NCBI GenBank assembly: GCA_937951675.1 | Contig: CALFBI010000015.1 | Location: 1-40,148 of the forward strand | Origin: an uncultured Verrucomicrobiales bacterium | Lineage (GTDB): Bacteria; Verrucomicrobiota; Verrucomicrobiia; Verrucomicrobiales; Akkermansiaceae | DNA: 40,148 nt | Direction: 5' to 3' | Shown here: in pieces, positions 1,109-33,606 of the stretch | How positions within the stretch are numbered: position 1 is the stretch's first letter | Layout: each line of letters starts with the position of its first letter | Notes under the pieces: model-generated | Seen by the model: the letters and a program-made list of their open reading frames with translations, nothing else | Told to the model about the DNA's origin: nothing | The model's database searches: none | Made by a program: the position numbers and the translations under genes

Positions 1109-1141
1109 AAAACGACTCTTGATTTTCTTCTTTTTCACCTC

Positions 1142-1174
1142 AAAGCCTTTCTTCTTTCGAAGGAAGGTTTTTTT
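1142..1174 (+). terminator. Hairpin plus T-run between nrtA and nrtB (terminator or attenuator)
   Basis: A nine-pair stem (CCTTTCTTC / GAAGGAAGG, one G-T wobble) with a TTTC loop is extended by A-T pairs and ends in seven T residues. It lies 34 bases after the nrtA stop. It resembles an intrinsic terminator, but the next genes clearly belong to the same transporter. Partial termination that keeps the binding protein more abundant than the membrane subunits is the likely role; this is inference. Confidence 0.55.
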
Positions 1175-1270
1175 CTTTCGGTAACCCCAGAGCCCCCCCT
1201 TTCTTATTCATGATTAAAATGAAATGAACTCATTCATCTTGGCTCAAGTGTTGCGGTAGTAAACAGCAAG

Positions 1271-2899
1271 ATGAAGAATCCGCTTTCATACATAAAATAC
1301 CCGCTACTCAAAGCGATTGATATTTCAGGCCTCACCTTTTTAGGGCCAGTTGTGCGACTCTGCTATGGAGAAGAACCTTCGGTGCAAATGAAAAAGATCG
1401 GACAGTGGATTTTTATTCCGATCATCTTTATCATTCTTTTTCTCTTCGTCTGGGGAATTGCTTCAGAAAAAATTCAGACTAAATCTGGAGCACTTCCAAA
1501 CCCTACTAAAACACTGCAAGCTTATGATTCCATTAATACTTTTGCGAAACGCGAGAAACTCAAAAAAGAAGCTTATGAAGCTCATGGAGAACAACGTGAG
1601 AAACTCCTAACAAAGGCTCAGGAAAGATTAGCTGAAATCATCCCGCAAGCTCAGGCCGCTACAGAATTAGTAACGCAAGAAAAAGCCAACCAAAAAGTAA
1701 AACTCGCATCACAAATTGCTCCAATCAAAGAAGAGTATAAAACCTCGAAAAGGGCCTTTACCGAGTCTCAAAAGCAGCGCCAAACTCAGTTAGATCACAC
1801 CTCTAAAAAACTTCATATTGGCAATGAAGAACAATACCAGTCTTTCATTCAATCAGTTAAAGAGCACCAATCTCAAACTGAAACCGAAAAGTCTACTCTT
1901 CGATCAATTAAAATAAAGATCAAAGAAATCGAAAACTCTAGCTCTAAAAAAGTAGAAAAGGCGTTGCAACTCCAAACTATCATGGCAGAAGAGCAACAAT
2001 TTCTAAAAAAACAAATAGATCAACTCACACGTGATAATAAATCGCTCAAAGTAGAGTCGGAACAACTTAAGATTGAAGAAAATTTCACTGCTCTGACACA
2101 AGTCACAGGCAAAGAAGCTCTCAAAAAAGCCCAGTCGATTGTCAAAACAGAAACCCGCCTCGAAAAAACGAAAGCCTCGAATTATGCAAAACCTTCCACT
2201 CTTTGGTTTCAAGTAAGACGTTCTATTCTTTGCGTTTTCACTGGTTTTCTATTAGGGTCTCTTATCGCAATTCCGATCGGAATTCTCTGTGGGTTAAGTT
2301 CGACCTTTATGGCAGCAATGACTCCCTTTGTGGCGATCTTTAAGCCTGTATCTCCCATTGTTTGGCTCCCGATCACCTTAATTATCGCTAGCGGCCTCAT
2401 TCCGGATCCTGATCAAAATCCGCTCATGAAATTTTTATGGGGGCTTCCTGGGGAACTTGGGGAATTCAAAATTAACCCTGCCTTCATTGCCTCTGCCGCG
2501 ACCGTAGCACTTTGTTCCCTTTGGGCTACTTTAGCCAATACCGCTTTGGGTGTGGCTAGTATCGACAAAGATCACCTCAATGTAGCTCGAGTCTTAAAAC
2601 TAGGATTTTGGTCTCGACTTTTTAAAATCATCATCCCCTCCGCTCTCCCTCTTATCTTTGCAGGCCTTCGCATTTCATTAGGAGTTGGCTGGATGGTTCT
2701 CATCGCAGCAGAACTACTATCATCTTCTGAGGGAATCGGGAAATTTGTATGGGATCAATTTAACAACGGTGCTTCGGACTCTTTTGCGAAAATGATTGTT
2801 GTGGTCTTTGTTGTCGGGGTGATCGGACTCATCTTGGACCGAATCATGATCATCTTCCAACGCATGGTTTCTTTCGAAGGTTCTGCTGCTACGATTTAA
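1271..2899 (+). CDS. nrtB: Nitrate ABC transporter permease NrtB with a large coiled-coil insertion
   Basis: This is the inner-membrane permease of the nitrate importer. The 542 residues are about twice the usual length of roughly 270-300. A first hydrophobic segment lies near residues 43-66. It is followed by about 220 residues rich in Lys, Glu and Gln with heptad character (about 85-300), predicted as coiled coil. The conserved permease domain then runs from about 315 to 535, with five or so membrane spans. The ATPase-coupling EAA-like loop is visible as [20 protein letters not shown], followed by the conserved [20 protein letters not shown]. The gene is 23 bases upstream of the first ATPase gene. 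The insertion looks genuine rather than a fusion error, because the frame is uninterrupted and codon use is uniform. Its function is unknown. Confidence 0.9.
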
Positions 2900-2922
2900 A
2901 CTCACTCTACTCCACTAACTTC

Positions 2923-3840
2923 ATGTCTTTTCTCGAGCTTCAAGATGTCTCTATTGCTTTTGGCCCAGCTTCTAACCGAGCCGAAGTGCTCTCAAACATC
3001 AACTTATCCGTTGAAGAAAATGAGTTTGTCGCAATCATCGGTTTTTCTGGTGCAGGAAAGTCGACTCTCATGTCCTTACTCTCTGGACTAGAGAAACCTA
3101 CTTCGGGCCGTATTCTATTTAAAGGCAAACCGATTACAGGGCCAGGGCCTGATTTAGGCTTAATGTTTCAGAACTACTCCCTTCTTCCATGGCTTTCAGT
3201 GAATGAAAATGTCAAACTAGCGATCAAAAAAGTATTCCCTAAACTTTCTTCTCAAGCCGTGAATGAAAAAATAAGCCGTTATGTAGAAATGGTAAAATTA
3301 GGACCTGCTGGGGATAAAAAACCTCACGAGCTTTCGGGTGGCATGAGACAGCGCGCTTCACTCGCTCGCACGCTCTCTCTTGACCCCGAAGTTTTACTTC
3401 TTGACGAACCTCTCTCTGCGCTGGATGCCCTCACAAGATCAGAACTACAAGATCAGATTCTCAACATTTGGGAGCAAAACAAACGCACTGTCATCATGAT
3501 CACTAATGATGTCGATGAAGCCGTTTTAATGGCAGATCGTATTATTCCTTTAACAATGGGACCACAAGCGAGTCTTGCAAAAGAATTTAAAGTCAATATG
3601 GAACGCCCCCGCGATCGTCATACTTTGAACGATCACCCCGAATTCATGCGCCTTAAATCAGAAATCACACAATTCATGATGGGGCTCAATGAGGAATCTA
3701 AATCCTTACAAAACTCCACCCGCACAACGATGCCTTCCATTGAACCCAAAGACTTCAACCCTCCTCGGGTCACTCCTAACATGCGCTCCCAAAATCTCAC
3801 GCTAGGAACACCTACCTCATCAGGTCAAGGCGCTGCTTAA
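2923..3840 (+). CDS. nrtC: Nitrate ABC transporter ATP-binding protein, first copy (switch histidine replaced by Asn)
   Basis: This is an ABC ATPase of 305 residues, one of two that should power the NrtB permease. Walker A is GFSGAGKST (near residue 42), the Q-loop is [10 protein letters not shown], the signature is [10 protein letters not shown], and Walker B is [12 protein letters not shown]. The switch region reads [10 protein letters not shown], so the usual H-loop histidine is Asn195; the paralog immediately downstream keeps His. After the ATPase domain comes a Ser/Thr/Pro/Asn-rich tail of about 45 residues with no recognisable fold. There is no NrtA-like C-terminal domain, unlike cyanobacterial NrtC. 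The pattern suggests a heterodimer with one canonical and one weakened site. The C/D naming is by order only. Confidence 0.87.
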
Positions 3841-3861
3841 TTCCTTTTTTCTATTCAAAAT

Positions 3862-4749
3862 ATGTCCACTTCTTTGAATTCTAAATTTGTTGAGATCTCT
3901 CACCTCGTAAAAGAATATCCCAACCCTTATGGGGAAGATTTTCGTGTGATCGAGAACTTCAACCTAAACATCAAACAAGGAGAATTCATCTCACTAATCG
4001 GGCATTCTGGCTGTGGAAAATCAACTGTTCTTACAATGCTTGCCGGCCTTAACGAAATCTCTGATGGCGGTATTATCGTAGGCGACAAAGAAATTGACGG
4101 ACCAGGTCCAGACCGAGCTGTTGTCTTCCAAGCTCCTTGCTTGATGCCTTGGATGACAGCTTATCAAAATGTCATGCTAGGAGTGAAAAATGTTTACCCT
4201 CACGCTACCAAATCGGTTCAAAAACAAATTGTCGAGCACTCCCTCTCTATTGTGGGACTTAGCGACGCGATGAAAAAGCTGCCTAATGAAATGTCTGGTG
4301 GAATGCAGCAACGGGTCGGCATCGCAAGAGCTATTGCTCTCAAACCAAAAATGCTTCTTCTTGATGAGCCTTTTGGGCGCTTGGACTCCCTTACTAGAAT
4401 GGAGCTACAAGATGTCATCATTAACATTTTAGCAGAAGAAAATCTCACCGCTATGATCGTCACGCATGATGTCGATGAAGCCGTATTTATGGCGGATCGC
4501 TGTGTCATGATGTCAAATGGACCCAAAGCAGGAGTGGGAGAGATCATGGAAATCAACTTCCCCCGCCCCCGAAATAGACAAGATGTTTTTAATGACCCCA
4601 TGTTCTTTCGATATCGAGAACACCTTTTAGCCTTTCTCGAGCAACGTTCTCACATCAAGGGAAAAACTCGTCTTCATAATCATGAAGATCTCATTGGTTA
4701 TTTAAGCTCCGAAGATTTGAAATCGTTAGAAGCCCAGTATCAAGATTAG
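3862..4749 (+). CDS. nrtD: Nitrate ABC transporter ATP-binding protein, second copy (canonical)
   Basis: This is the second ABC ATPase of the nitrate importer, 295 residues. All motifs are canonical: Walker [11 protein letters not shown]-loop [11 protein letters not shown], signature [14 protein letters not shown], Walker [13 protein letters not shown], and the switch segment [11 protein letters not shown] with its histidine. The segment [22 protein letters not shown] matches the extended C-terminal region typical of the NrtC/D-SsuB-TauB group. The start lies 21 bases after the previous stop, so the two are co-transcribed. A terminator-like hairpin follows about 40 bases downstream. Family-level assignment is firm; nitrate specificity comes from context. 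Confidence 0.9.
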
Positions 4750-4790
4750 GGATAGTTAAACCCTCATTCTAAGAAATACTGACTCCAACC

Positions 4791-4822
4791 GCTCTTGTGC
4801 CTTACCAGCTCAAGAGCTTTTT
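4791..4822 (+). terminator. Intrinsic terminator after the nitrate transporter genes
   Basis: A perfect seven-pair stem (GCTCTTG / CAAGAGC) with a 13-base loop is followed by five T residues, 41 bases after the second ATPase gene. It would end transporter transcripts and separate them from the reductase genes, which then need their own promoter or readthrough. Confidence 0.65.
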
Positions 4823-4940
4823 CATGACACCAAATCGGAGCGCGCTACTTAGGTTCCCACTATGAATCCAAATCATCATAATGATGACCCTTCGATCTCA
4901 ATAGTTGGCACAGAAGATGTTATTAAAGGGTGCATAAGAT

Positions 4941-6698
4941 ATGAATTTGCCAAATCTAGGTTTCAATGAAGAACAGCAACAATACCTTTCCGGGTTTGTT
5001 ACTGGAGCTCTTCACCGCCAAAAAGTCCCTTTTCTTGGTCAAACTGCCTCTGGCCAATTTACTAATGACCCCATGGAAGCAGAACATGTTTATGGAACTG
5101 CCATTGACGATCTTTGTAAAGAAGAGCAAGTGAAACATGAACAACACGGCCTTGATTCCTACAGCACCATTCTAGAAAACGCAAAAAAGGGAATCTTTCC
5201 GGAGTCCGGAGATACTTTTCGCTATAAATTCTATGGACTTTTCCATGTGACCCCGGCTCAAAACTCTTTCATGCTCCGAGCACGTATCCCTGGTTGCGCT
5301 ATGAGATCTCACCAACTCAAAGGCTTTGCTGATATCGCAGAACATTGGGGCGGAGGCTATTCTGACATCACGACGCGAGGCAACTTACAAGTGCGAGAAA
5401 TCATGCCTGAAAATTGCGTCAAAGTGCTCGATCAGGTTGTTGACTTAGGCCTCACTTCCCGAGGTGCCGGTGCTGATAATGTGCGAAATATCACCGCTAC
5501 TCCTACGAGTGGTTTTGATCCTCACGAACTCTATGACGTGCTGCCATTAGCCAAGTCCATGCACCACTACATCCTCAATAACAGAGACCTTTATGGACTC
5601 CCCCGTAAATTCAATATTGCGTTTGATAGTGGTGGTGCGGTATCCGTATGTGCCGACACCAATGACATTGCTTTTTATGCTACTGAATTGAAAGAAGCGC
5701 AAGGTGACCTTCAGCCTGGGGTTTATTTCCGCATGCAACTATGTGGAATCACAGGTCATAAACAATTTGCCACAGACACCGGTATCTTGCTCACTCCTGA
5801 CGAAACAATCGTCATCGCGGCGGCAATCTTACGAGTGTTCATTGAAAACGGAGACCGAACGAACCGGAAAAAAGCCCGACTTAAATACCTTGTAGACCAA
5901 TGGGGCATCCAGAAAACTCTCGAAGAAACAGAGCGGAAGCTCACCTTTCCTCTTCGTTACGTTCCTCTTGAGAAATGTGTTCCTCCACGGCCGAAGTCGA
6001 AGCATGGACACATCGGAGAGCATCTGCAAAAAGACCGAAAATATTATTTAGGGGTTGTCATTCCAGTCGGTCGAATGCCAGCCAAACAAATGCGCCAAAT
6101 CGCAGAGATTGCTGATCAGTATGGATCAGGTGACATCAGGCTCACCGCTTGGCAGAATATGATTATTCCTGATATTGATAGCTCTGTCCTTGCCGCTGCC
6201 AAAAAAGCAGTGATAGATGCTGGGTTGCACTATCAAAGTAGCTCCGTTAGCGGTGGGCTCATTGCTTGCACTGGAAATACTGGATGCAAATTCGCGGCCG
6301 CAAACACCAAAGGTCAATCTGTTCAAATCGCTCAGTATTTAGAACAAAAAATAAAGTTAGACCACCCCATTAATATTCATCTCACCGGGTGCCCTCATTC
6401 GTGTGCTCAGCACTACATTGGTGATATCGGCATGCAAGGAGTGAAAGTGAAAAATGCTCAGGGAGAAAACGTCGAAGGATACAACATTGTCCTCGGTGGT
6501 GGAGTTGATGACACCCAAGCGATTGCCAAAGAAGTGTTCAAAGCGGTTCCTTTTGATAAGGTCGCTCCTCTTCTTGAACACGTCCTTTCCACCTATTTAG
6601 ACATGCGAGTCAGCGAAGAAACATTTGTCGAATTTACGGCTCGATACAATACCGATGAACTTAAAAAAATTCTCACTCCGAGCCTTCTTTCTGTATGA
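4941..6698 (+). CDS. nirA: Assimilatory nitrite reductase, NirA/sulfite-reductase-like hemoprotein
   Basis: This cytoplasmic siroheme and [4Fe-4S] enzyme is predicted to reduce nitrite to ammonium with six electrons. Two half-domain repeats of the family are visible. The cluster/siroheme ligands are in [11 protein letters not shown] (about residue 442) and [17 protein letters not shown] (about residue 482), giving the four Cys of the bridged centre. Substrate and siroheme contacts lie in [16 protein letters not shown] and [13 protein letters not shown]. At 585 residues it is longer than cyanobacterial NirA (about 510). No NAD(P)H or FAD domain is fused, so an outside donor is needed; the flavodoxin gene that overlaps its stop codon (ATGA) is the obvious candidate. 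A sulfite reductase role is possible, but the nitrate genes on both sides argue against it. Confidence 0.9.
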
Positions 6699-7288
6699 AC
6701 TACCTCATCCCGCCACCTGAACTCCCTAAAGATTCCCCTTTCACTGAATCTCAAAAGCAGTGGTTAAAAGGTTTTTTTGACGGGCTTTCTGCAATCCAAC
6801 CTAATGACCAAACTTCAGAATCGCTCTCTCCTAGTGGACCTCAAGTAACTATTTTATGGGGTTCTCAAACTGGAACCTCCGAAATGCTCGCAAAAAAAGT
6901 CGCCAAAAAATTGACCACCTCGGGATGTATTACCTCTGTCCTTGATATGGCAGATACGAACCTCGCAGACCTATCCTGCCTTTCACATCTCGCTATTATT
7001 ACAAGCACCTACGGAGATGGTGAACCACCGGATAATGCCGCCGCATTACATTCCGAGCTTATGAATGAAACATCTCCTTTCTTTGAAAGCACTTCCTTCT
7101 CTGTGCTAGCCTTAGGGGATTCTTCTTATCCCGACTTTTGTCAATCAGGGAAAGACTTCGACCAACGCCTTGAAGCTCTTGGTGCTAAAAGAATGACAAA
7201 TCGAGTTGATTGTGATGTCGACTACGATGATCAATTCGAGTCTTGGACCAAATCTCTGATCGCAAGTTTCACAAGCCTACCAGCCTGA
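6695..7288 (+). CDS. Stand-alone flavodoxin-domain protein (CysJ/NosA-like N-terminal module)
   Basis: This 197-residue protein is predicted to bind FMN and pass single electrons. The FMN phosphate loop [13 protein letters not shown] is near residue 56, the ring-binding loops are [13 protein letters not shown] and [14 protein letters not shown], and [17 protein letters not shown] is typical of the flavodoxin half of CysJ and cytochrome P450 reductases. The FAD and NADPH-binding domains that normally follow are missing, and the gene ends cleanly. Residues 16-33 ([17 protein letters not shown]) match the usual N-terminal lead-in of sulfite reductase flavoproteins. Its start overlaps the nirA stop by four bases, implying translational coupling. 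It probably feeds electrons to NirA, though it could serve the next two proteins instead. Confidence 0.87.
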
Positions 7289-7293
7289 AACCC

Positions 7294-8850
7294 ATGTCTT
7301 GCTCTTCAACCTCTCTTGAGAAATCATTATATTCAGACCTTAATCTGATTGATCAACTTCTAGGTGAGCAACAACAACTTCAAACACCGGTAGCCACTTT
7401 TGCTAAAGAACACTCTAGCCTCCCAGATCAGGAGCAATACTACCGCACTCTGATTCCGAGCTCACAACCTCAAGAAGGGCAACAATACGCCTTTGAAGTC
7501 GAATTAGATAAATGCACCTCTTGCAAAGCCTGTGTCACAGCTTGCCATAGCTTAAACGGGCTAGATGAAAATGAAACTTGGCGAGATGTCGGAACCCTTC
7601 TCGGAGGCGAAGAAGCTCCTGGCTGGCAGCAAACCATCACCAGTGCCTGCCATCACTGTATCGATCCAGAATGTTTAAATGGATGTCCCGTTGCCGCTTA
7701 CGATAAAGACCCTGTTACTGGAATTGTTCGGCATCTTGATGATCAATGTATCGGGTGCCAATACTGTGTCTTAAAATGTCCTTATGATGTTCCGAAGTAT
7801 AATCCAGCAAAGGGAATCGTTCGCAAGTGTGACATGTGCTACAGCCGTTTAAATGAGGGCGAAGCGCCAGCTTGTGTTCAAGCTTGTCCAAATGAGGCTA
7901 TTAAAATCGTTACGATTGATGTCGCTGAAAAAACGCGTCAAGGGTTTCGAAAGGAAGGCTTTTTGATCGGTGCACCTAGTCCGCACCTTTCCCTCCCTAG
8001 CACTATTTACAAAGGAAGAAACCTTCCTAAAAGTGCTCATTCAGCAAGCCAAAAAGACGTGCACCCCGAGCATGGCCATTGGCCTCTCGTCGCGATGTTA
8101 ACTTTAACCCAAATCGGCGTAGGAGCCAGTCTCGCAATTCCTTTCCTCCAATCATCTACATTCATCACTTCTCTCATAAGCGTTGTCTTCGTGATTGCGG
8201 GCCTTGGGCTTGGGGTTTGTCATTTAGGTCGCCCAATGGGAGTTTGGAGATTTTTCTTAGGACTTAAAACCTCTTGGTTAAGTCGTGAGTTTGCGATATT
8301 TGGCGCTTACTCAGGAGCTCTCACTTTCCTACCTATCATCACCTTCTTTTTTCCTGATTTTTCTTACCTTCGCCTGATCCAAGGAGGAATTGCAGGTTTA
8401 GGTCTCCTTGCCGTTTTTACTTCTATCATGATTTATGTTGATACGAACCGACCCTTTTGGAAGTTCAGCTATACTGCCACTAAATTTTACGGCACTTCTT
8501 TCGCTGCCACTTTCGCCTTACTCAGCCTATGGTCTGACTCCCTTCTTTTCCCTAGCTTATTTACTCTAGTAATGATCACAAAGCTAGGCTTGGAAATTCA
8601 AGGCACACGAAAATCGAACTCTCCTGAATGGTCTCCTGCGCAGCATAGTGCAAAAGTGCTGCTAGGCCCCCTTCGGTGCCTTTTCCGGGCTCGAATCATT
8701 ATGGGGATCGCCGCTCTTCTTTTGATGGGGGCTATTCCTCTCGTGGCATTTTCTTTTCTCCTCCTCTCTGAGCTCCTCGAACGCATCACTTTTTTCAAGG
8801 CTGTCTATCATCCTCGCATGCCTGGAATTGCGACTCATTCCCACCATTAA
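7294..8850 (+). CDS. DmsB-DmsC fusion: four [4Fe-4S] ferredoxin subunit joined to a quinol-binding membrane anchor
   Basis: This protein should carry electrons from the quinol pool to the nitrate reductase encoded next. The N-terminal part (about residues 60-210) is a DmsB-type ferredoxin with four cysteine groups: [38 protein letters not shown] and [21 protein letters not shown]. From about residue 260 to the end, about eight hydrophobic segments form a DmsC-like anchor, starting with [17 protein letters not shown]. The two are separate subunits in E. coli DMSO reductase. I chose the ATG six bases after the flavodoxin stop; an in-frame ATG 51 bases earlier would overlap that gene. The nasA gene starts two bases after the stop codon. 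There is no Tat signal, so the iron-sulfur domain is expected on the cytoplasmic side. Confidence 0.9.
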
Positions 8851-8852
8851 TC

Positions 8853-11069
8853 ATGCTTTTCACCAATAAGAAAAATTCATTATTTCGCCGTTGGAATGGC
8901 CCTCTCACGAAGGATTTGTTACAAAAGCCAGCTCAATATGGATTAGGTAAAACTCCTGAAAAAGTGACCCCTGATGCCACGACTCAATCTATTTGTGGTT
9001 TTTGTGCGACCGGTTGCAATTTAAAAATTCATCTCAAAAATGGAGAAGCGGTTAACCTTAGTCCCGAAACGAATTACCCCGTAAATATGGGAATGGCTTG
9101 TCCCAAAGGGTGGGAAGCACTCAGCCCTCTATCTTCCCCCGACCGAGCCACAACTCCACTCTTAAGAAACTCTCATGGGGAGATGGAAGTATCTAGCTGG
9201 CAGAATGCTTCCCAAGAATTCGCAACCCGTTTTAAAGAGATTCAATCAAAATACGGTAAAGACAGTGTCGCTTTTATTAGCACCGGACAAATTCCTTTCG
9301 AAGAAATGGGACTCTTAGGAGCCTTCGCTAAATTTGGGATGGGAGTCTCTCATGGAGATGGAAATACACGGCAATGCATGGCTACCTCCGTAATGGCCTA
9401 TAAGCAAAGCTTTGGATTTGATGCACCTCCTTATACTTACCAAGACTTCGAAGAATCCGATGTGCTTGTCTTCTGTGGAGCTAATCCGTGCATTGCTCAC
9501 CCCATTATGTGGCAAAGGGTCGTGAATAATAAACGAGACCCCAAAATCATTGTTGTTGATCCAAGGGCTACCGAGACAGCGCAATGCGCCACTCATCACT
9601 ACCCGATTAAGCCAAAGGCTGACCTGACACTCTACTACGCTCTCGCTCATTGTATTGTTCGAGACCAACGAATAGACCACTCATATCTAGATCAACATAC
9701 GCAAGGCTTTGAAGAGTTTTTCGAATTCTTGACAGACTACGCTCCCGAAAAAATAGCGCCTAAAACCGGACTTTCAGTCTCTCAAATCGAAGAGTTTGCA
9801 CGTCTCGTCTCTGAACCAGGGAAACGGGTCTCCTTTTGGTGGACGATGGGAATCAACCAAAGTTATGAAGGCGTTCGCTCTGCTCAAGCGATCATTAACT
9901 TATGCCTCATGACTGGAAATATTGGTAAACCAGGCACCGGCGCCAATTCGATTACAGGTCAATGTAACGCGATGGGGTCTCGTCTCTTTTCCAATACAAC
10001 CAACCTTCTTGGAGGACATGATTTTAAGAATGACCGGCACCGTCAAAAAATAGCTGACATTCTTGAAATCGACGTCGAGAAAATACCCAGCGAAAATAGC
10101 TGGGCTTACGACCAAATTATCGAAGGCATTGGTAATGATAAAATCAAAGGTCTCTGGATCATTGCCACGAATACGGCCCACTCATGGATTAATCAAAAAG
10201 AGTTTACTGAAAAACTCCGTTCGAAGTTAGAGTTCCTCGTCGTTCAGGACATGTATGCCACTACTGAAACAGCACAACTGGCAGATTTAATTCTCCCCGC
10301 TGCAGGATGGGGTGAAAAAGACGGATGCTTTATTAATTCGGAACGCCGGATTGGAACTATTAAAGCGGTGAAACGCCCTCCAGGAGAAGCGCTCTCTGAT
10401 TTCCGTATTTTCAGGCTCCTCGCTCATGCCTATGGAGTAGGTGAAATGTTTCGGAAGTGGGATACTCCTGAGGCTGTTTTCCAAATTCTTAAAAAATGCA
10501 CCAAAGGGCAACCTTGTGACATTACAGGAATTGATAGTTATAAAACACTCAATAAAGCGGGAGGGATCCAATGGCCTTTCCCCGTAGGGACAGAGCTCCG
10601 GGGAAGCAATCAAAGACGTCTCTTCGAAAATGGTAAATTTTACCATTCAAACGGGAAAGCTCGCTTTCTCTTTTCCGCTCCGGCCCAAAAACTCGCAGAA
10701 GAACCCTGCAAAGACTACCCTTTCATTCTTCTAACTGGACGAGGGACCTCTAGCCAATGGCACACTCAAACGCGCACTCAGTCATCGGATGTTCTACGGA
10801 AGCTTTACCCGCATGAAGTGTATGTTGAAATGCACCCTCGTGATGCCGAAAAGATCGGAATAAAAGACCGAGAAAAAGCTTTGATCAGTTCTCGTAGAGG
10901 CCAGATTTATGCTCAAGTTTACCTCGCTCCTACAATGCAAGAAGGCCAACTCTTTCTACCGATGCACTACCGTGAAGTTAATCAACTCACTCACGCAAGC
11001 TTTGACCCCTTTTCCAGACAACCTAGTTACAAAGCATCTGCAGTAAATATTACTGCCCCGCTTTCTTAA
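8853..11069 (+). CDS. nasA: Assimilatory nitrate reductase catalytic subunit (molybdopterin, NasA/NarB type)
   Basis: This Mo-bisMGD enzyme of 738 residues reduces nitrate to nitrite in the cytoplasm. The N-terminal [4Fe-4S] site is ICGFCATGC (near residue 46) with a fourth Cys in GMACPKGW (near 82). The molybdenum ligand is the Cys of [19 protein letters not shown] (near 174), within the NasA/NapA-like context [10 protein letters not shown]. The C-terminal dinucleotide-binding domain begins at [19 protein letters not shown] (near 626). There is no twin-arginine signal, as expected for an assimilatory enzyme. The extra C-terminal [2Fe-2S] domain found in some NasA proteins is absent. It sits at the end of the operon, directly after the DmsB-DmsC fusion, which is its probable electron donor. 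Formate dehydrogenase was considered, but the Mo ligand context and neighbours favour nitrate reductase. Confidence 0.9.
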
Positions 11070-11101: not shown

Positions 11102-11848
11102 TTACATTGTCATTCCTCCGTCCGTCGCTACCACCTGACCGGTGATATACCGAGCTTCTGCACTAGCAAGGAATAAGGTCAGAGCAGTCACGTCTTCTGC
11201 CGCGCCAAAGTCACCTAGAGGAATCGAGGAGAGAATCCCCTCTCTCACTTTTTCATCAAGCTGATCAGTCATGTCGGTCTTAATAAATCCTGGAGCAATC
11301 GCATTACAGGTGACTTTACGCCCTGAAAGTTCACGCGCGACTGATTTCGTAAAACCAATCAAGCCCGCTTTACTGGCAGCATAGTTTGCCTGGCCAGCAT
11401 TACCGATAAGACCAATCACACTACTAATATTAATAATACGTGGATCCGCCGCTTTCATCATCGAGCGCTGGAAGGCTTTTACAGTGTTGAAAGCTCCTTT
11501 TAAATTGGTATCAAGAACGGTATCCCAATCTTCTGATTTCATCCTCATGAGTAAACCATCCCGAGTCACTCCGGCATTATTTACTAAAATATTGACTTGC
11601 CCAAAGTCGGCCAAAATTTGTTTTCCCACCGTCTGCACTTCATCAAAATTTGCAACATCGAGCGCATAAGATTTCGCTGAATCAGGAAATTGTTGATTGA
11701 GACTTTCGGCCACAGGCCCGCAAGACCCTTCTGACCGGCTCAGCACTGCCACTTTGGCTCCAGCTTTGACGAAAGCTTCCGCAATCGAACGACCAATTCC
11801 ACGACCTGCACCGGTCACTACGACAACTTTTCCTTCAAATGATGACAT
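11102..11848 (-). CDS. fabG: 3-oxoacyl-[acyl-carrier-protein] reductase FabG (SDR family)
   Basis: This is an NADPH-dependent short-chain reductase of fatty acid elongation, acting on 3-ketoacyl-ACP in the cytoplasm. Its 248 residues are the normal FabG length. The dinucleotide-binding motif VVTGAGRGIGRSIAEAF is at the N-terminus, followed by ILVNNAGVTRDGLLMRM, which is highly characteristic of FabG. The catalytic set is Ser in INISSVIGLIGNAGQ with Tyr and Lys in NYAASKAGLIGFTKS. The C-terminal TGQVVATDGGMTM also fits. No fabD, acpP or fabF is adjacent, so the gene is outside a fab cluster here. It is convergent with nasA and divergent from the zinc-ribbon/TPM gene. Confidence 0.92.
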   Translation of the reverse strand: MSSFEGKVVVVTGAGRGIGRSIAEAFVKAGAKVAVLSRSEGSCGPVAESLNQQFPDSAKSYALDVANFDEVQTVGKQILADFGQVNILVNNAGVTRDGLLMRMKSEDWDTVLDTNLKGAFNTVKAFQRSMMKAADPRIINISSVIGLIGNAGQANYAASKAGLIGFTKSVARELSGRKVTCNAIAPGFIKTDMTDQLDEKVREGILSSIPLGDFGAAEDVTALTLFLASAEARYITGQVVATDGGMTM

Positions 11849-11941
11849 GGGAAGAAAATGAAGTTTGGAACGAGGCCTGACCAGCGAAAAAGGTCACTTC
11901 ATCCTTGGTGCAATAGACAAATCATCATAAATTAGACTTCT

Positions 11942-12526
11942 ATGTTGCTTTGCCCCTACTGCAATCAAGAAGTTATTGAAGACGCCCCTTCCTGCCCTGG
12001 TTGCCAATTTGAGTCCGCCAAACTCATTCAGCTCCTAGGCCCTGCACCCACTTTACTTGAACCAGTGAACGATTGGCGAGGCATCTGGAAGCCCAAAGAA
12101 ATCAAAGCGCTCATTAAAAAAACAGAGAACTTTCATTATCAGTTCCCTAAAACAAACCTCTTTTTTGTGGCGCGCTCTTTTCCTGAGGAGTTTCCGATGA
12201 AAGTCTGTCTCTTTCATTTTTTCAACTCTACAGGACTTACCGAATTGAGTAAACGCCTGGGGCAAAACCAAAATATTTTAATTGGATTTGATCCCGATAA
12301 CCGCCGTTTAGGGATCATCGTTGGATACGGCTTAGAAGCTTATCTAGTCCCTCATGAACTCGACCATATTCTGGCCCAGGCCGAAGTCGCTCTTACTCAA
12401 AACGGGTATTACAAAGCAGCCTCCCTGATGATCAAAACACTGCAAGAAAAGCTTACCAAAATCGCAATCGAGATTCCTGATGCTTATGGACTTGATAACG
12501 TAGATGTGCTGCAATCTGAATACTGA
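11942..12526 (+). CDS. Zinc-ribbon plus TPM-domain protein
   Basis: This 194-residue protein of unknown function begins with a four-cysteine zinc ribbon (CPYCNQEV...CPGCQF, residues 4-22). The rest resembles the TPM fold (Psb32/YgcG family). The typical pattern is a substrate-like strand (NLFFVARSF), then ILIGFDPDNRRLGIIVGYGLE and a helical C-terminus with GYYKAASLMI. No signal peptide or membrane span is present, so it should be cytoplasmic, unlike most TPM proteins. A second protein of the same architecture is encoded at 33023-33553. It stands alone between fabG and holB, with 11 bases to the convergent holB stop. TPM domains have been linked to acid phosphatase activity and to photosystem repair, but neither can be claimed here. 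Confidence 0.75.
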   Translation: MLLCPYCNQEVIEDAPSCPGCQFESAKLIQLLGPAPTLLEPVNDWRGIWKPKEIKALIKKTENFHYQFPKTNLFFVARSFPEEFPMKVCLFHFFNSTGLTELSKRLGQNQNILIGFDPDNRRLGIIVGYGLEAYLVPHELDHILAQAEVALTQNGYYKAASLMIKTLQEKLTKIAIEIPDAYGLDNVDVLQSEY

Positions 12527-12532
12527 GCAACT

Positions 12533-12560
12533 CTTTCTTAACTAAAAGCCTTTAAGAAAG
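12533..12560. repeat. Perfect inverted repeat between convergent genes
   Basis: CTTTCTTAA and TTAAGAAAG form a perfect nine-pair stem with a ten-base loop, spanning the gap between the zinc-ribbon/TPM gene and the holB stop. There is no clear T-run on either side, so a weak bidirectional terminator is possible but not shown. Confidence 0.35.
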
Positions 12561-13569
12561 TCACCTCAAAAACCAAAGCCTCTGTCGCGTTCGTTTCTAA
12601 GAGAGAGCGAAGCTCCTGAATCTCATCGAGGCGACGCATCAGCTGATCCAAGCTTTGTCGATTCGCGTAATCCTCGGACCACGCCTTCGCGACTGGAATA
12701 TCGAGATCCTCCCATCCAACTTTGATTCGAATGACATCCCCTAACCAAGAGATTAAAGATTCACAATAATGGAGCCGCTCTTGTAAATAATCAGCTTCAA
12801 CTGATGCTTTATGAGCATTTTCTCGATCATCTAGCCAAGACTTATCAGCCGACTGTTTATAGATCGCCATTTCTTCTTTGAAGGCCTGCTCTGCAGCTTT
12901 TGCTAAAATCGCTTTGCGAGACCCTAGAAATTGCGAAAAAACATTCTGAGCTGCAAGAGCCTTCGCCATGGCTTCATTTTCATTCCTAGCAGGTGACGAA
13001 AGCATTTTAATCATTCCTAGAAATTCATCGGGAAACTCCTGCTTGGTCTGCCCAGGAGCGTGTAACACCAATTCCACACAGCGGGACTTGATCGTAGGAA
13101 GAAGCCTTTCTGCTTCCGTCGTCAGCAAGATAAGAAGGCTTTGAGAGGGTGGCTCTTCTAAAGTTTTAAGAAACGCATTCGCTCCGGCCTCATTCAAACG
13201 GTCAACATCGACAATCACGCCTACTTTCCATTTGGCTTTAGGAGCTGAAAAGTTGCAAAATTTTTCAAGTTCTCGCACTTCTTCCACTTTAATCTGCCGG
13301 CTCTTTGATTGCGGCCGAATCACACGAACATATTCCCCTGCTACCTCTTTCAAGCCAGCCTGATCCTCGTCTGCTTCAGGTTCGAGGGCTTCTCCAAAAA
13401 GGCCCATTTCAGGCCCTTGTTCAGGAGGGTTCACCATTTGAACCATTCGTGCCGCTAGAGTTTCCTTCCCTGATCCAACCGGGCCAGAGATTAAAAATGC
13501 ATGTGCTAAACGCTTCCGCTCAAAAGCAGCGTTAACGAGTTTATAAGCTTTGTCACAAGTCGTTGCCAC
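12538..13569 (-). CDS. holB: DNA polymerase III delta' subunit (clamp-loader ATPase-like)
   Basis: This is the delta' subunit of the replication clamp loader. The segment RLAHAFLISGPVGSGKETLA carries the P-loop-like motif near residue 20. KWKVGVIVDVDRLNEAGANAFLKTLEEPP matches the Walker B and sensor-1 neighbourhood of DnaX/HolB (key residues DxDxL, AxNAFLKTLEEP), and LPTIKSRCVELVL includes the SRC sensor motif. I chose the GTG at 13569 because AGGA lies three bases upstream and it gives the normal short N-terminus. The longest frame starts at an ATG at 13659, whose start codon would overlap the hisI start on the other strand and which adds 30 unlikely residues. The four-Cys zinc module of tau/gamma is absent. 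Confidence 0.85.
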   Translation of the reverse strand: MATTCDKAYKLVNAAFERKRLAHAFLISGPVGSGKETLAARMVQMVNPPEQGPEMGLFGEALEPEADEDQAGLKEVAGEYVRVIRPQSKSRQIKVEEVRELEKFCNFSAPKAKWKVGVIVDVDRLNEAGANAFLKTLEEPPSQSLLILLTTEAERLLPTIKSRCVELVLHAPGQTKQEFPDEFLGMIKMLSSPARNENEAMAKALAAQNVFSQFLGSRKAILAKAAEQAFKEEMAIYKQSADKSWLDDRENAHKASVEADYLQERLHYCESLISWLGDVIRIKVGWEDLDIPVAKAWSEDYANRQSLDQLMRRLDEIQELRSLLETNATEALVFEVTFLKAFS

Positions 13570-21963: not shown

Positions 21964-22041
21964 TAGATTCTTACTCCTCATTAATTGTTCAATAAAAAAT
22001 CACATTGCGAGTATCCGTCTAAAAAGATAAGTTCTTCAATA

Positions 22042-23670
22042 ATGCTTTTGAGACTTTTTTTACTTCTTATTTTCACTCCTTATTTAGCTCTTGCTGAAGA
22101 GGCTCGCTCTCTTATCCCGACTGAGACACTCAATAGTCTGTCGGCCTCTTTTTCCGAGGCACGGGACGAAAAAAAGCTCCTCGAAAAAAAACTTCGCTCT
22201 CTTCGAGATGAAATCGCAAAAGAGCCCGTTAAAAGAGAACTTGAGGAAACAAACCTCAAAATCAACAGGCTCTTTACTCAATTTGAAAGGCTCTCTTCAG
22301 GCTTGAACGATGAAAAATGGAGCTCTCTGAATGAACAAGAATTCACTCTTTCAGACGAGGTGAACGAAATCCTCAAACCACTCATTCAAGAAATCAAAGA
22401 TGCGACTGAAAACCCGAGAGAAATTGAACGCGCTCGAACTGAAATCGATCTTTTAAACCGTAAAATTCAAGCCGCTCAAGAAGCTACTAAAAGATTAAAA
22501 AAAGTCCTCTCAATCACAGAACTCTCTAAAGAAAGTAAAAAACAGGCTCAAATACTCCTCTCTGAATGGGAAGAAAAAGTAGAAGAAGCGCAAAGCCAAC
22601 AGAAAGTTCTTCAGTTTGAACTTGATGAACGATCGAAACAAAAACGTTCTTTATTTCGTAAATCTTCTGCAACCATCCTCAAATTCTGCAAAACACGAGG
22701 GCTTAATATCCTCATGACCATTCTCTTTTCAGGGACTTTCTTTTTCGCCATTCATTTTATTCACCGTAGAATTAAGAAAAACGACCGGTATAAAAAAAGA
22801 AAAAAGGGCTCTTTCCAATCACGCCTGATCGACATGATCTTCATTACTGCGAAGATTTTTTTCCCTACTGTTATCGCCTTTCTTATTCTTTACGCGACAG
22901 GAGACTGGGTCCTCTTACTACTTCTTAGCCTCTTCATGCTAGGAGTCTTATGGAGTTTAAAAGACAAAGGCCTCTTTATCATGGAAAGGCTTGAAATACT
23001 TCTTAACTTAGGCCCCGTTCGAGAAGGCGAAAGAATCATCGTTCACGGAATTCCCTGGGAAGTAACCGAGCTCGGGATAGACTCTCGGCTCACTAACCCA
23101 GAGCTATCAGGGGGAGAACTGCATATGGAATTACGAGACTTAGTAAATCTACACTCCCGTAAATATTCCAATGATGAACCTTGGTTCCCCACCCAGAAAG
23201 GGGACTGGGTGATTTTATCAGACGAAACATATGGAAAAATTATTTGCCAAACCCCCGAACACGTTCAACTCATCAATCTTGGAGGTGCTCGTATCACTTA
23301 CCCCACCGGGGATTTCTTAACGCTTTCTCCTAAAAATTTATCGAAAAATTTCCGCGTCAACATGAGGTTTGGGATCGACTATCAATACCAAAAAATTTCC
23401 ACCTCTGAAGTTCCTTCCATATTCCGAGAAGCTCTTCAGCGTGAAATGGCTGAATTGGTCGGAAAAGAACACCTTGTTAACCTGAAGGTCGAATTTGCGG
23501 AAGCGGGCGCTTCATCTCTCGACTACGCCATTATCGCTGACTTCAAAGGCGAGATTGCCTCAAAATACCATGTCCTTCAGCGAGCGATTCATCGGGTCTG
23601 TGTGGATGTTTGTAATCGTGAAAATTGGGAAATCCCCTTCACGCAAATCACTGTTCATCAGGCCAAATAA
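22042..23670 (+). CDS. MscS-like mechanosensitive channel with N-terminal coiled coil and two beta domains
   Basis: This predicted inner-membrane channel or stretch sensor has 542 residues. A signal peptide (LLRLFLLLIFTPYLALA) leads into about 180 residues of Glu/Lys-rich coiled coil, expected in the periplasm, like the long N-terminal parts of MscK/YbiO. Three hydrophobic spans lie at about 220-320. The MscS beta domain appears twice: GPVREGERIIVHGIPWEVTE with about 30 following residues, then KGDWVILSDETYGKIICQT through YPTGDFLTLSPKNL, and finally an alpha/beta C-terminal domain. I chose the ATG at 22042 because it gives the signal peptide; the frame extends back to a TTG at 21985. Family assignment is good; gating is not testable here. 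Confidence 0.78.
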   Translation: MLLRLFLLLIFTPYLALAEEARSLIPTETLNSLSASFSEARDEKKLLEKKLRSLRDEIAKEPVKRELEETNLKINRLFTQFERLSSGLNDEKWSSLNEQEFTLSDEVNEILKPLIQEIKDATENPREIERARTEIDLLNRKIQAAQEATKRLKKVLSITELSKESKKQAQILLSEWEEKVEEAQSQQKVLQFELDERSKQKRSLFRKSSATILKFCKTRGLNILMTILFSGTFFFAIHFIHRRIKKNDRYKKRKKGSFQSRLIDMIFITAKIFFPTVIAFLILYATGDWVLLLLLSLFMLGVLWSLKDKGLFIMERLEILLNLGPVREGERIIVHGIPWEVTELGIDSRLTNPELSGGELHMELRDLVNLHSRKYSNDEPWFPTQKGDWVILSDETYGKIICQTPEHVQLINLGGARITYPTGDFLTLSPKNLSKNFRVNMRFGIDYQYQKISTSEVPSIFREALQREMAELVGKEHLVNLKVEFAEAGASSLDYAIIADFKGEIASKYHVLQRAIHRVCVDVCNRENWEIPFTQITVHQAK

Positions 23671-29841: not shown

Positions 29842-30855
29842 CTACTCATCCTTCTTGGGTTCTTTTAAAATATCATTAAAAATCTCCAAGAGCTTTTCTG
29901 CCGGTATCGCATAACTTTCGCTGCGACTAAAAGCAGAGATATTCATTCCGACACACTTCCCATCAAGATCGCAAAGTGGCCCTCCTACAGAACGATTTGT
30001 CATAGGAATCGAATGTTGTAAAACTAACGGGAACCCACTTCGGCGTTCTGAAATCCGCCCACTCATCGCATCGTTACGAGTGCCTGAGCGAGGATAAACT
30101 TCTTTCCGAGGCTTCAGTAGGACTTCTATTTCAAATTCGCGCGCCCCTCTTTTCATCCCTAAAGTCATGGAATCTCCCGAGACTTTGGTGAGAAGAGCCT
30201 CTTCTAATGACTCCGTATCTTTAATAATGACCTCTCCTACCCGCAGTAATTGATCACCCTCTTTCAAATCAGAATGAATGACATCTAATTTTTCATCTAA
30301 GTTATCAGCGACAAAAACAGACTCTTTTTCTTTGTCTTCATTCCATGAAAAAGGGAGAACCACCTCCCCCTTCATGTAAACAGGGCGCGTTTTGGCACTA
30401 ATGATTCCAACTCGAATTCGCCTTCTTCTTTTTGAGGTCGCTCCATTGCTCACCACCCATTTCCCCATTTCAGTATTCTCACTGGACCAAGTCACCTGAG
30501 GCAAATCCTGACCATTCACTTTGAGTAAAATCAAATCCCACTCTGGAATTTCTGCAACCTCTTCTAACTCTTTATAGATGGTTGTTTTGTGAACCAAATA
30601 AGTTGTTTCTCGTTTTTGATATTCACTGAGCTTAGCGAAAAAATAACCACGTTGATCAATTAAAGACGCGAACCCATAATGTCGGCGACCCTCATAAAGA
30701 ACCCCACTCGATTTTTGAATCGCCTCTTGCGGAACTCTAAAGGCTTGACGGGTCTCTTTCCCATTAGTCCGAAATGCTCCTTCTAACTGTTGAGCTTGCG
30801 ATAAGCTACTCCATAAGAAACACGCCAATAGAAAACAGGCTTTACTTAGATCCAT
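29842..30855 (-). CDS. Degenerate trypsin-like (HtrA-type) protein with internal PDZ domain, probably inactive
   Basis: This 337-residue protein has a signal peptide (ACFLLACFLWSSLSQA). It reads as a pseudo-protease. By comparison with the intact neighbour, the catalytic His position aligns with Ser77 (GYFFAKLSEY), Asp107 is kept in EWDLILLKV, and the nucleophile Ser is Val290 in NRSVGGPLCDLDGKCVGMN. A PDZ-like segment (about residues 185-250; SDLKEGDQLLRVGEVIIKDT) lies between the Asp and the Ser loops, i.e. inside the protease fold rather than after it. The start overlaps the last 14 bases of the active protease gene, so the two are translationally coupled. A scaffold, inhibitor or substrate-receptor role is the likely explanation. 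Confidence 0.75.
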   Translation of the reverse strand: MDLSKACFLLACFLWSSLSQAQQLEGAFRTNGKETRQAFRVPQEAIQKSSGVLYEGRRHYGFASLIDQRGYFFAKLSEYQKRETTYLVHKTTIYKELEEVAEIPEWDLILLKVNGQDLPQVTWSSENTEMGKWVVSNGATSKRRRRIRVGIISAKTRPVYMKGEVVLPFSWNEDKEKESVFVADNLDEKLDVIHSDLKEGDQLLRVGEVIIKDTESLEEALLTKVSGDSMTLGMKRGAREFEIEVLLKPRKEVYPRSGTRNDAMSGRISERRSGFPLVLQHSIPMTNRSVGGPLCDLDGKCVGMNISAFSRSESYAIPAEKLLEIFNDILKEPKKDE

Positions 30856-31945
30856 AACGTATTTTGATTATAATTGTTTCACCCTGCCGTTCGACTTTAA
30901 CCTCATCGAACTCTTTTTCTGCTTTCTTTGCTAAATAAGATGACAATTGCTTTTGATCATTCACCTCTGTGTCCCCTACTGAAATAATAATATCGTTAAC
31001 CAAAATTTTGTTTTTTTCGGCAACACTTCCTTCCCACGTTTCAAGCACCTGAAGCCCTTTCCCTGAAGCTGATTTCACTCGAACTCCTAGAAAAGCAGTC
31101 CCCGGTTGAGGCTTCTTTGCGAAAGGCCCTTCTCCTATAAATTCCGAATCTAAAAGCCGCTCCCAATTTTCCTTATAAACATGAATAGGCACATGCATAT
31201 TTTGTTCCTTGGAAGAACTGACTCTACTATGAATTCCTACTAATTGACCTTTTAGATTAAATAATGGCCCTCCAGAGTCACCCCCAATCACAGCACAGTC
31301 TGATTGAATCGTCACTTCAGCTTCCCTAACAATTCGCCCTACCCTAGCCACGATTCCTCGTTCCTTATCAAAACCGCCAGAATACCCTAAAGCATAAACC
31401 CAATGCCCTACCTTAAGGTCATCTGATGCTGCCACTGTCACATAGGGATAAGGGCCTCCCCCCTTCAACTGAGCTAAGGCAGCATCTGTTTGAGAATCAA
31501 GGCCTAAGGAAACAGCTTGATGCTCTGAACCGTCTTCAAAACGAACCTTGAATTCTTCTCCCACTCCCGTGGTGACATGGGCTGCCGTCATCACGAGTCC
31601 TTCTGGAGAGATAATAACTCCTGACCCTTCCCCTGCTTCTAATTCAATATTAACAGTTGCAAGTTTCGAGTTTTGAATTGAGCTCAATATGAGCGCTTGA
31701 ATGGTCAATAAATCTTTAGAGCTTTTAGGCGCTTTGAGCTCATTAACATATAGTCTCCTATCAGAATCTGGCTCAGCTTTCACCTGCCAAACACTGCAAC
31801 TTATTAAGAGAGCAACTGTTAGAAAAGAGTGAGGGCACCCCAAATTCAATAGTGGAAACCCCCTAACCAAGAATTGAATTATAACTGGAATGCCCTCACA
31901 GAGAGTATTCTCCTTTTTTCTCTTATCTTCAAGTTTTTTGCGCAT
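30842..31945 (-). CDS. Secreted trypsin-like serine protease with C-terminal PDZ domain (HtrA/Deg-like)
   Basis: This 367-residue periplasmic protease has all catalytic residues: His123 in VMTAAHVTTG, Asp154 in SQTDAALAQL, Ser224 in GGDSGGPLFNLKGQLVG. A PDZ domain follows (about 270-360; VRVKSASGKGLQVLET, NDIIISVGDTEV). The likely signal peptide is SFLTVALLISCSVWQVKA, preceded by about 35 residues when the ATG at 31945 is used. A TTG at 31849 with AGGGGG upstream would give a more normal signal peptide and is a serious alternative. The downstream gene, overlapping by 14 bases, encodes a catalytically dead relative. Periplasmic protein quality control or regulated cleavage is the likely role. 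Confidence 0.85.
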   Translation of the reverse strand: MRKKLEDKRKKENTLCEGIPVIIQFLVRGFPLLNLGCPHSFLTVALLISCSVWQVKAEPDSDRRLYVNELKAPKSSKDLLTIQALILSSIQNSKLATVNIELEAGEGSGVIISPEGLVMTAAHVTTGVGEEFKVRFEDGSEHQAVSLGLDSQTDAALAQLKGGGPYPYVTVAASDDLKVGHWVYALGYSGGFDKERGIVARVGRIVREAEVTIQSDCAVIGGDSGGPLFNLKGQLVGIHSRVSSSKEQNMHVPIHVYKENWERLLDSEFIGEGPFAKKPQPGTAFLGVRVKSASGKGLQVLETWEGSVAEKNKILVNDIIISVGDTEVNDQKQLSSYLAKKAEKEFDEVKVERQGETIIIKIRYGSK

Positions 31946-32007
31946 TCAATTTCTATTTTTTTGCAGGAGACTCCTTCGAATGATACACCAGAAGCTCTTT
32001 GGGTGAT

Positions 32008-33033
32008 TTATAAAACGGATTTCTTTTTCAGGCGCTCTTTTTTTTGCTCCGAAATAGGGCGATCTGCATTGCTATAATCCATCGTCAAAACCGGGCCTAA
32101 ACCGTGTGGGGCTCCTAATGAAGGCTGAATATCGTGTGGCGTGAATTGGTAAACTTTATGTTTCTTACTTCGAAATATCATCACTATGGAGCTAATCATG
32201 AAAATCACGGCCCCCACCAAGCTCCATAAATAGAAGCGCTCTGACCCTTCTGTTTTTTCTATCAAATCATTTAAGACGAGATCCTCAGATCCAACAACAT
32301 CCTCTACTTCATCTAACAAATAAGGTTGCTCGTCTACAATTTGCAGGCTCAACTCATTAATAAAAACTTCCAATGGCCTCTCTTTATTTTCCGAAGCAGA
32401 TAAAGCTGACTTTAACCACTGTTGAGAAGGTAATGCCTCAGGAGCTACAATTTCTGAAGAAGATGGAGTCGCCAAGTAATACGCCGCAACGATTTCTTCG
32501 GTCTGAGAAGAAGCATGTAATTCATAGGAGTCATGCACGGTCTGCTGCTGTGGCCAATCTGTTTTACTCTCATATATATAGAGATAGAGGTTATGCTTAG
32601 ATAACCCTGCATGCCGGTTCAATAAACCATTTAACTCCCTCAGGTCACGGTCCGTCAATTCACCACGAGGATCAATCACATAAGAAGCTGGAATTTGGCT
32701 CAGTGAATCGGCTAAAGCCCGCTCTTTTGCCAGGTGTTCTATTTCCTTTGCTACTTTTTCCTGTTCGGCTCGAGCCTCTTCATAATCACTTTCGGACAAC
32801 CGATACCTAAAGTCGTCTTTTTTCCCAAAAAGCACCTTCGCGCATTCTTGGATCATACTGCCAACTTCAACCTCTTCTTCCTCAGACCACGCTGGCATTG
32901 CCCAACCTAAACGCGGAGCGTATTGCAATTCCTGTGCTCGCTGCTCGGTGTTGCCACAAAGCACCGCTGAACCATTCAGCAGCAGCCAAGCAATCAGATA
33001 AAAAAGAGTAAAATGACCCAATTTACGAAACAT
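32008..33033 (-). CDS. TPM-like periplasmic domain protein with a C-terminal membrane anchor
   Basis: This 341-residue protein has a signal peptide (LFYLIAWLLLNGSAVLC), a Glu-rich helical segment, and a TPM-like region (YVIDPRGELTDRDLRELNGLL, HNLYLYIYESK). One membrane span lies near residues 273-290 (LVGAVIFMISSIVMIF), followed by a cytoplasmic tail of about 50 residues with a Lys-rich end. The order of TPM domain, membrane span and cytoplasmic tail is familiar from YgcG/Psb32-like proteins, but the conserved core is divergent, so the domain call is moderate. Its start overlaps the preceding zinc-ribbon/TPM gene by 11 bases. The protease pair follows 62 bases downstream. Confidence 0.65.
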   Translation of the reverse strand: MFRKLGHFTLFYLIAWLLLNGSAVLCGNTEQRAQELQYAPRLGWAMPAWSEEEEVEVGSMIQECAKVLFGKKDDFRYRLSESDYEEARAEQEKVAKEIEHLAKERALADSLSQIPASYVIDPRGELTDRDLRELNGLLNRHAGLSKHNLYLYIYESKTDWPQQQTVHDSYELHASSQTEEIVAAYYLATPSSSEIVAPEALPSQQWLKSALSASENKERPLEVFINELSLQIVDEQPYLLDEVEDVVGSEDLVLNDLIEKTEGSERFYLWSLVGAVIFMISSIVMIFRSKKHKVYQFTPHDIQPSLGAPHGLGPVLTMDYSNADRPISEQKKERLKKKSVL

Positions 33034-33553
33034 TGGCTTTGAGTTTTTTCGTGATTAAATCGATCAGCATAACGAAACTCCGCGCATACTCACCTGCAAT
33101 GAGAAGGTGATGCACCCTGCTCATACATTGAAACATATCTGCGTCTGATAAGTAATGAGAAATTTGATAACCCCGAATGCTCGATAACTCCTTACGTTTA
33201 AAATCTAAGGCCACTAGTAAACCCCACTGGCCGTCTCCCTTTTCGGGCATCTGAGCCTGATTAAAAACCCAAAAAAGCCACTCTCTCTGCCTCTCATCAA
33301 GTTCTTCCTGATGAACCACAAAACATAATCGAATTTGAGGAAACCGTTGATGAAAGATCTTTAGAGCCTCCCGAATCTTTTTACGATCGGCATGCCTAAC
33401 CCCCCCCGCATTATCATAAAGGTAATTAAAAGGGTATTTTTCGTTTCCAAAGAAATTTTGTGCCTCCAGAAGGTGATAGCCACAATGAGGGCACTCCTCT
33501 GCACCCATGTGAAACGACTGTTCACATTTCACGCAAATAGGAGGCTGACTCAT
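33023..33553 (-). CDS. Zinc-ribbon plus TPM-domain protein, second copy
   Basis: This 176-residue protein has two Cys pairs (CVKC near the start and CPHCGYHL, residues 7-29), then a TPM-like domain: IRLCFVVHQEELDERQREW, WGLLVALDFKRKELSSIRGY, and HLLIAGEYARSFVMLIDLI. It is the same architecture as the protein at 11942-12526. No signal peptide is seen. I chose the ATG at 33553; the frame extends nine codons back to a TTG. It is the first gene of a four-gene unit. Its last 11 bases overlap the membrane TPM-like gene, suggesting that the two TPM proteins act together on opposite sides of the membrane. Confidence 0.72.
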   Translation of the reverse strand: MSQPPICVKCEQSFHMGAEECPHCGYHLLEAQNFFGNEKYPFNYLYDNAGGVRHADRKKIREALKIFHQRFPQIRLCFVVHQEELDERQREWLFWVFNQAQMPEKGDGQWGLLVALDFKRKELSSIRGYQISHYLSDADMFQCMSRVHHLLIAGEYARSFVMLIDLITKKLKANVS

Positions 33554-33606
33554 GGGGTTAAGTGATAATAAATGACGCAAGCTCTACCATCAAGAGCTCA
33601 CAATTG

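Follow-up and report, generated by a model that had tools for sequence, protein, structure and literature searches.

A conserved pair of live and dead HtrA-type proteins in Verrucomicrobiota, with a PDZ domain predicted inside the fold of the dead partner

The usual HtrA unit is a trimer, and HtrA control is understood as a relay running from PDZ domain to loop L3 to neighbouring subunit within homo-trimers, in which each subunit both senses and cuts. In known HtrAs, ligand binding to the PDZ domain moves L3, an arginine of which (Arg178 in DegS) then imposes order on the LD loop and the active site of the adjacent subunit (PMC11642142). Degenerate protease domains can take part in such systems: in magnetotactic bacteria, MamO is needed non-catalytically for the activity of MamE (PMC4794232), and in plant Deg7 the degenerated protease domain is reported to mediate trimerisation (PMC3473262). 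Here we describe a pair of adjacent genes encoding a live HtrA-type protease (PROT) and a dead relative (PSEUDO), found in a 40,148-nucleotide stretch of contig CALFBI010000015.1 from a member of the Akkermansiaceae (hereafter, the window). The two belong to a minus-strand gene set at 29842-33553, which also holds two genes for TPM-domain proteins (ZnTPM and TPMm). The features of the protease pair are as follows:

30842-31945, minus strand: PROT, HtrA-type serine protease of 367 amino acids; Trypsin_2 domain at residues 107-238, C-terminal PDZ domain at 285-360; triad H123, D154, S224
29842-30855, minus strand: PSEUDO, HtrA-like pseudoprotease of 337 amino acids; Ser77 replaces the catalytic His (30625-30627), Asp107 is kept (30535-30537), Val290 replaces the nucleophilic Ser (29986-29988)
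30040-30384, minus strand: predicted L3-loop insertion of PSEUDO, residues ~158-272, just after the invariant Arg157; marked by non-collinear hidden Markov model (HMM) pieces
30106-30354, minus strand: inserted PDZ domain of PSEUDO, residues ~168-250; Pfam PDZ_2, 26.2 bits
30010-30078, minus strand: motif RNDxMSGxxSxRRxxFPRVxQHD of PSEUDO, residues 260-282; family-specific, leading back into the trypsin barrel and nearly invariant in 48 sequences

In the window PROT, the Pfam domain Trypsin_2 scored 97.4 bits and PDZ_2 was placed at 285-360, and the His-Asp-Ser triad was intact in every relative (117/117). Against the Do-family model TIGR02037, PROT scored 145 bits, below the curated cut-off of 416.2; judged by its sequence, it is HtrA-like, and we do not file it as a Do-family member. 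The triad of PSEUDO is lost (Ser/Asp/Val in the window copy, where HtrA/Deg enzymes carry the catalytic triad): among its 118 family members the catalytic His is replaced by Ser in all, the Asp is kept in all, and Ser occupies the nucleophile position in none, its place being taken by V, I, M, T, A, C, Q or E. Such variety at the nucleophile position, together with the uniform loss of the His, makes it scarcely credible that PSEUDO is catalytically active by way of a different nucleophile or base, even though 12 of 19 paralogues do carry a Cys where the nucleophile would be. An earlier interpretation of this DNA from its letters alone (the sequence-only reading) had proposed a live and a dead HtrA-like protease, which the triads bear out; it had overlooked that the PDZ domain of PSEUDO sits inside the trypsin fold. 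Nor is PSEUDO a decaying copy, since its ratio of nonsynonymous to synonymous substitutions (dN/dS) resembles that of PROT (0.05-0.20 vs 0.07-0.20 across the same eight close genome pairs), pointing to equal purifying selection on the two genes; decay was ruled out on this ratio and on the invariant motifs.

The HtrA/Deg layout consists of a protease fold followed by a PDZ domain, whereas in PSEUDO the fold is present and the PDZ domain lies within it. In profile comparisons, residues 58-165 and 277-331 of PSEUDO matched two contiguous halves of the DegP/DegQ protease domain, while residues 176-245 matched PDZ1, which in DegP/DegQ comes after the protease domain, so that the pieces are out of order. 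The AlphaFold (AF2) model of PSEUDO had a mean predicted local distance difference test score (pLDDT) of 88, and structural alignment of its residues 26-333 gave Z 22-24 against AlgW and the DegS protease domain, the latter 212 residues long. The best-scoring of these DegS/AlgW-like matches (Z 23.9) covered 183 aligned residues over positions 37-332 of the model, and comparison with DegS from which the PDZ domain had been removed gave a template modelling score of 0.76-0.79 (on target). Because the HMM pieces are non-collinear and the model aligns to the whole DegS/AlgW protease domain, PSEUDO is predicted to be a complete trypsin fold carrying a PDZ insert of ~105 residues. Profile alignment placed the insertion point six or seven residues or fewer from the DegQ 'SALGR', i.e., in loop L3. 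Just before the insert stands Arg157, invariant in 48 relatives, which we take to occupy the position of DegS Arg178. An LD-like stretch, NGATSRxxRR, is also conserved, and the carboxylate-loop Gly168 of the PDZ domain is found in 36 of 38 relatives, with Pro168 in the window copy.

This architecture sets the pair apart from its closest described counterparts. With DegS, DegP and AlgW of the Do family it shares the trypsin fold plus PDZ domain, the L3 Arg and periplasmic secretion; those proteins, however, are homo-oligomers of live subunits (PMC11642142) whose PDZ domains are C-terminal to the protease domain. For MamE and MamO likewise, a single gene cluster encodes a live HtrA-type protease together with a pseudoprotease of trypsin fold (PMC4794232), but no PDZ domain has been reported inside the MamO protease fold, and against 800-bit NCBIfam equivalog cut-offs PROT (55.5, MamE) and PSEUDO (16.8, MamO) scored far too low. 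Deg7, too, combines live and degenerated protease domains, in a single polypeptide (PMC3473262); its order is PD-PDZ-PDZ-PDia-PDZ-PDZ, with PDZ domains after the protease domains rather than inside one, and it is one chain where the window has two genes and relatives mostly two, the paralogues in relatives being fused. While live/dead HtrA combinations are thus already known, we found no description of a PDZ domain inside an HtrA/trypsin protease fold, or of its insertion in L3, in the open-access literature that could be searched, and a term search of a survey of microbial PDZ families (PMC6411480) returned no such architecture. The statement in the sequence-only reading that no named system has this composition is fair for the exact set of four genes, but pairs of live and dead HtrAs are known from MamE/MamO and Deg7.

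PROT and PSEUDO are strictly adjacent, overlapping or separated by a gap of <=60 bases, in 79 of 79 named loci. The architecture is repeated in a second two-gene live/dead pair, whose dead partner again carries the PDZ insert and which the genome of the window has as well (L111; G000:C10, ~11296-13286). In relatives from several lineages the two are fused into chains of ~710-850 amino acids, with the live half first and the dead half second; the trees built from each half match one another at the level of groups and show three changes of the fused label apiece. Beyond the order, family f40 shows both forward fusions (L267 and L268) and a reversed one, a single 623-amino-acid chain (L269:3569-5440, minus strand) in which the dead HtrA precedes the live one; its dead half has the His-to-Ser replacement, with Ser retained where the nucleophile belongs. 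Among the Akkermansia genomes examined, PROT (L092, L285) is ~249 amino acids long and retains the HDS triad, yet has lost its own PDZ domain, absent from the Akkermansia member that was scanned, while the adjoining PSEUDO keeps one. In 387 genomes of the phylum, full-length PSEUDO matches were confined to Verrucomicrobiales and f40, and in an all-prokaryote scan the best 80 of 235 relatives were all from Verrucomicrobiota. In Verrucomicrobiota, PSEUDO stands as a separate pseudoprotease family that can be tested, and its pairing with PROT extends to Akkermansia, a medically interesting genus of the gut.

As a separate observation, L114, L115 and L116 each carry two adjacent multi-domain genes (~560-575 and ~710-725 amino acids) that both end in a PDZ-inserted dead protease half, and the first of the two also has a degenerate N-terminal protease sequence.

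On balance, we consider it probable that PROT is secreted as an active HtrA-type protease with PSEUDO as a dedicated regulatory subunit of a hetero-oligomeric HtrA, and that the TPM pair happens to lie beside them. PSEUDO would assemble with PROT into a mixed HtrA oligomer, and a ligand bound to the PDZ domain of PSEUDO would switch PROT on in trans via the L3 of PSEUDO, because that PDZ domain is built into L3 right after the Arg. The ligand would probably be an envelope protein, misfolded or mislocalised, bound by its exposed C-terminus, giving the pair a putative role in envelope quality control. More tentatively, sensing and cutting may be split between the subunits, the dead one, with its PDZ domain in the relay loop, switching on the live one in trans; the PDZ-less PROT and PDZ-bearing PSEUDO of Akkermansia would be the extreme of this division. 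If so, a dead subunit with the sensor in its relay loop would open the trans step to direct study, with sensor and cutter mutated independently.

Several points weigh against a regulatory PSEUDO. Oligomerisation, activation and the ligand are steps that we infer, and the models are of single chains only. PROT of the window and of most relatives retains its own L3 Arg (R204) and its own C-terminal PDZ domain, and may not need PSEUDO. Judging by P168 in its PDZ loop, the window PSEUDO may bind ligand weakly in this species. All characterised HtrAs are homo-oligomers (PMC11642142), and for MamE and MamO mutual binding could not be demonstrated (PMC4794232). A shortened L3 that would make PROT dependent on PSEUDO was also considered and dropped, as alignment to MucD/DegQ gave a near-normal L3 with the Arg kept.

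The strict pairing, the fusions, the PDZ domain in the dead partner and its absence from the Akkermansia PROT would fit a PSEUDO that binds substrates, i.e., an adaptor or chaperone handing misfolded clients to PROT with no allosteric control. We regard this as unlikely, as it leaves unexplained why the PDZ domain sits in L3 and why Arg157 is invariant and the LD-like NGATSRxxRR conserved. That PSEUDO would activate PROT and not inhibit it is our supposition. The unliganded PDZ domain of DegS is inhibitory through L3 (PMC11642142), and the overlap or close gap between the genes suggests coexpression, as would suit an inhibitor that holds PROT off until stress; no sequence feature favours inhibition over activation, however, and we think such a role quite unlikely.

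Upstream of the regulatory pair that we propose lie the TPM genes and a further conserved neighbour:

32008-33033, minus strand: TPMm, membrane-anchored protein; predicted periplasmic TPM-fold domain at 32305-32715, transmembrane helix at 32173-32229, conserved, probably cytoplasmic tail
33023-33580, minus strand: ZnTPM, with a zinc ribbon (C16, C19, C30, C33) and a TPM domain and no transmembrane segment
33607-34752, minus strand: aldo/keto reductase gene, directly upstream of ZnTPM and a conserved neighbour of it in several genera

By inspection of the open reading frames (ORFs) and sequence, ZnTPM likely starts at an ATG (33023-33553), an upstream TTG giving the end at 33580. The four-gene minus-strand layout reported by the sequence-only reading matched exactly, with ZnTPM and TPMm overlapping by 11 bases, TPMm and PROT separated by 62 and PROT and PSEUDO overlapping by 14. 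Its assignment of two TPM proteins also stood: ZnTPM reached 23.1 bits against Pfam TPM (PF04536; gathering cut-off 22.1), with the four Cys of its ribbon invariant, and the AlphaFold model of TPMm showed a TPM fold at residues 107-243 (domain pLDDT ~90 or more). The window TPMm had no Pfam match at that same cut-off of 22.1, and a fused relative reached 20.3. The top 14 structural matches of TPMm were all TPM-type (Z 9.8-13.2, among them BA41 at 13.2, PG_0361 at 12.4, TLP18.3 at 10.8 and Psb32 at 10.4), the next, unrelated one falling to 5.6. Kinship between TPMm and ZnTPM at the profile level was not significant by hhalign; their folds agree.

TPMm has hydrophobic segments at residues 8-26 and 269-287, and the topology we propose leaves ZnTPM in the cytoplasm, with the TPM domain of TPMm in the periplasm and its conserved tail in the cytoplasm. 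Within the regions examined, ZnTPM adjoins TPMm in every case where the two were found, and in two reduced Akkermansia genomes without PSEUDO they are fused into one protein of ~605 amino acids (L283:243-2069, minus strand; L286:2367-4181, plus strand). In the TPM family, known from TLP18.3/Psb32, BA41/BA42 and YdjH (PMC11237479), the TPM fold of ZnTPM and TPMm is familiar; what differs here is the pairing of a cytoplasmic zinc-ribbon TPM protein with a periplasmic anchored one, fused in some Akkermansia. A chaperone-like role in membrane-complex assembly has been suggested for TPM domains with PspA (PMC11237479), and no PspA was seen among the window genes scanned. From the fusion and these precedents, ZnTPM and TPMm may assemble into a TPM complex that spans the membrane and probably has a chaperone-like part in the assembly or repair of membrane complexes. 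The window also encodes a second zinc-ribbon/TPM protein, ZnTPM2 (11942-12526, plus strand; 194 amino acids, TPM 27.3 bits), adjoining a DNA polymerase III delta'-like gene, and a third TPM protein lies elsewhere in the genome (G000:C7, L112).

Linkage of the two pairs was counted in those named loci, 60 in all, whose upstream sequence was long enough. In 31 of them, spanning several genera, all four homologues shared order and strand, and the four-gene neighbourhood is real and conserved, more than chance. Beside PROT stood the TPM pair in 31 loci, a TPMT-like methyltransferase in 33, both in 20 and neither in 16; in relatives the methyltransferase gene often lies between TPMm and PROT. It and the upstream aldo/keto reductase gene, both overlooked by the sequence-only reading, belong to the same conserved neighbourhood.

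That reading had suggested that the four genes are a trans-membrane quality-control or signalling unit, a proposal to be abandoned if they proved usually separate. The linkage in 31 of 60 loci upholds a conserved neighbourhood and, at the same time, weakens the unit: in Akkermansia, the sister family f2 and several genera of the family, the pairs lie on separate contigs or at a great distance from each other, and fusions occur within each pair, with none seen between pairs. Moreover, nine Akkermansia genomes have TPMm in ORFs of more than 600 amino acids and no PSEUDO, and the unrelated-looking reductase and methyltransferase genes share the neighbourhood. Despite the common order and strand, we therefore rejected the four-gene unit on the separations and fusions, and hold a joint quality-control function of all four genes to be very unlikely. 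Because the pairs separate in these lineages and fusions stay within pairs, we conclude, from gene order and fusion, that the locus consists of two separable gene pairs in a partly conserved neighbourhood. Predicted promoter or terminator breaks between the pairs were no more numerous than in shuffled sequences.

An Rfam search gave no match. Elsewhere in the window, a 561-amino-acid ORF (21985-23670, plus strand) had no Pfam match at E 0.001. A run at 11-11069 (plus strand) resembles nitrate/nitrite or sulphite assimilation, with genes for an NMT1-like protein, an ABC transporter, an NIR_SIR reductase, a flavodoxin, a 4Fe-4S protein and a molybdopterin oxidoreductase.

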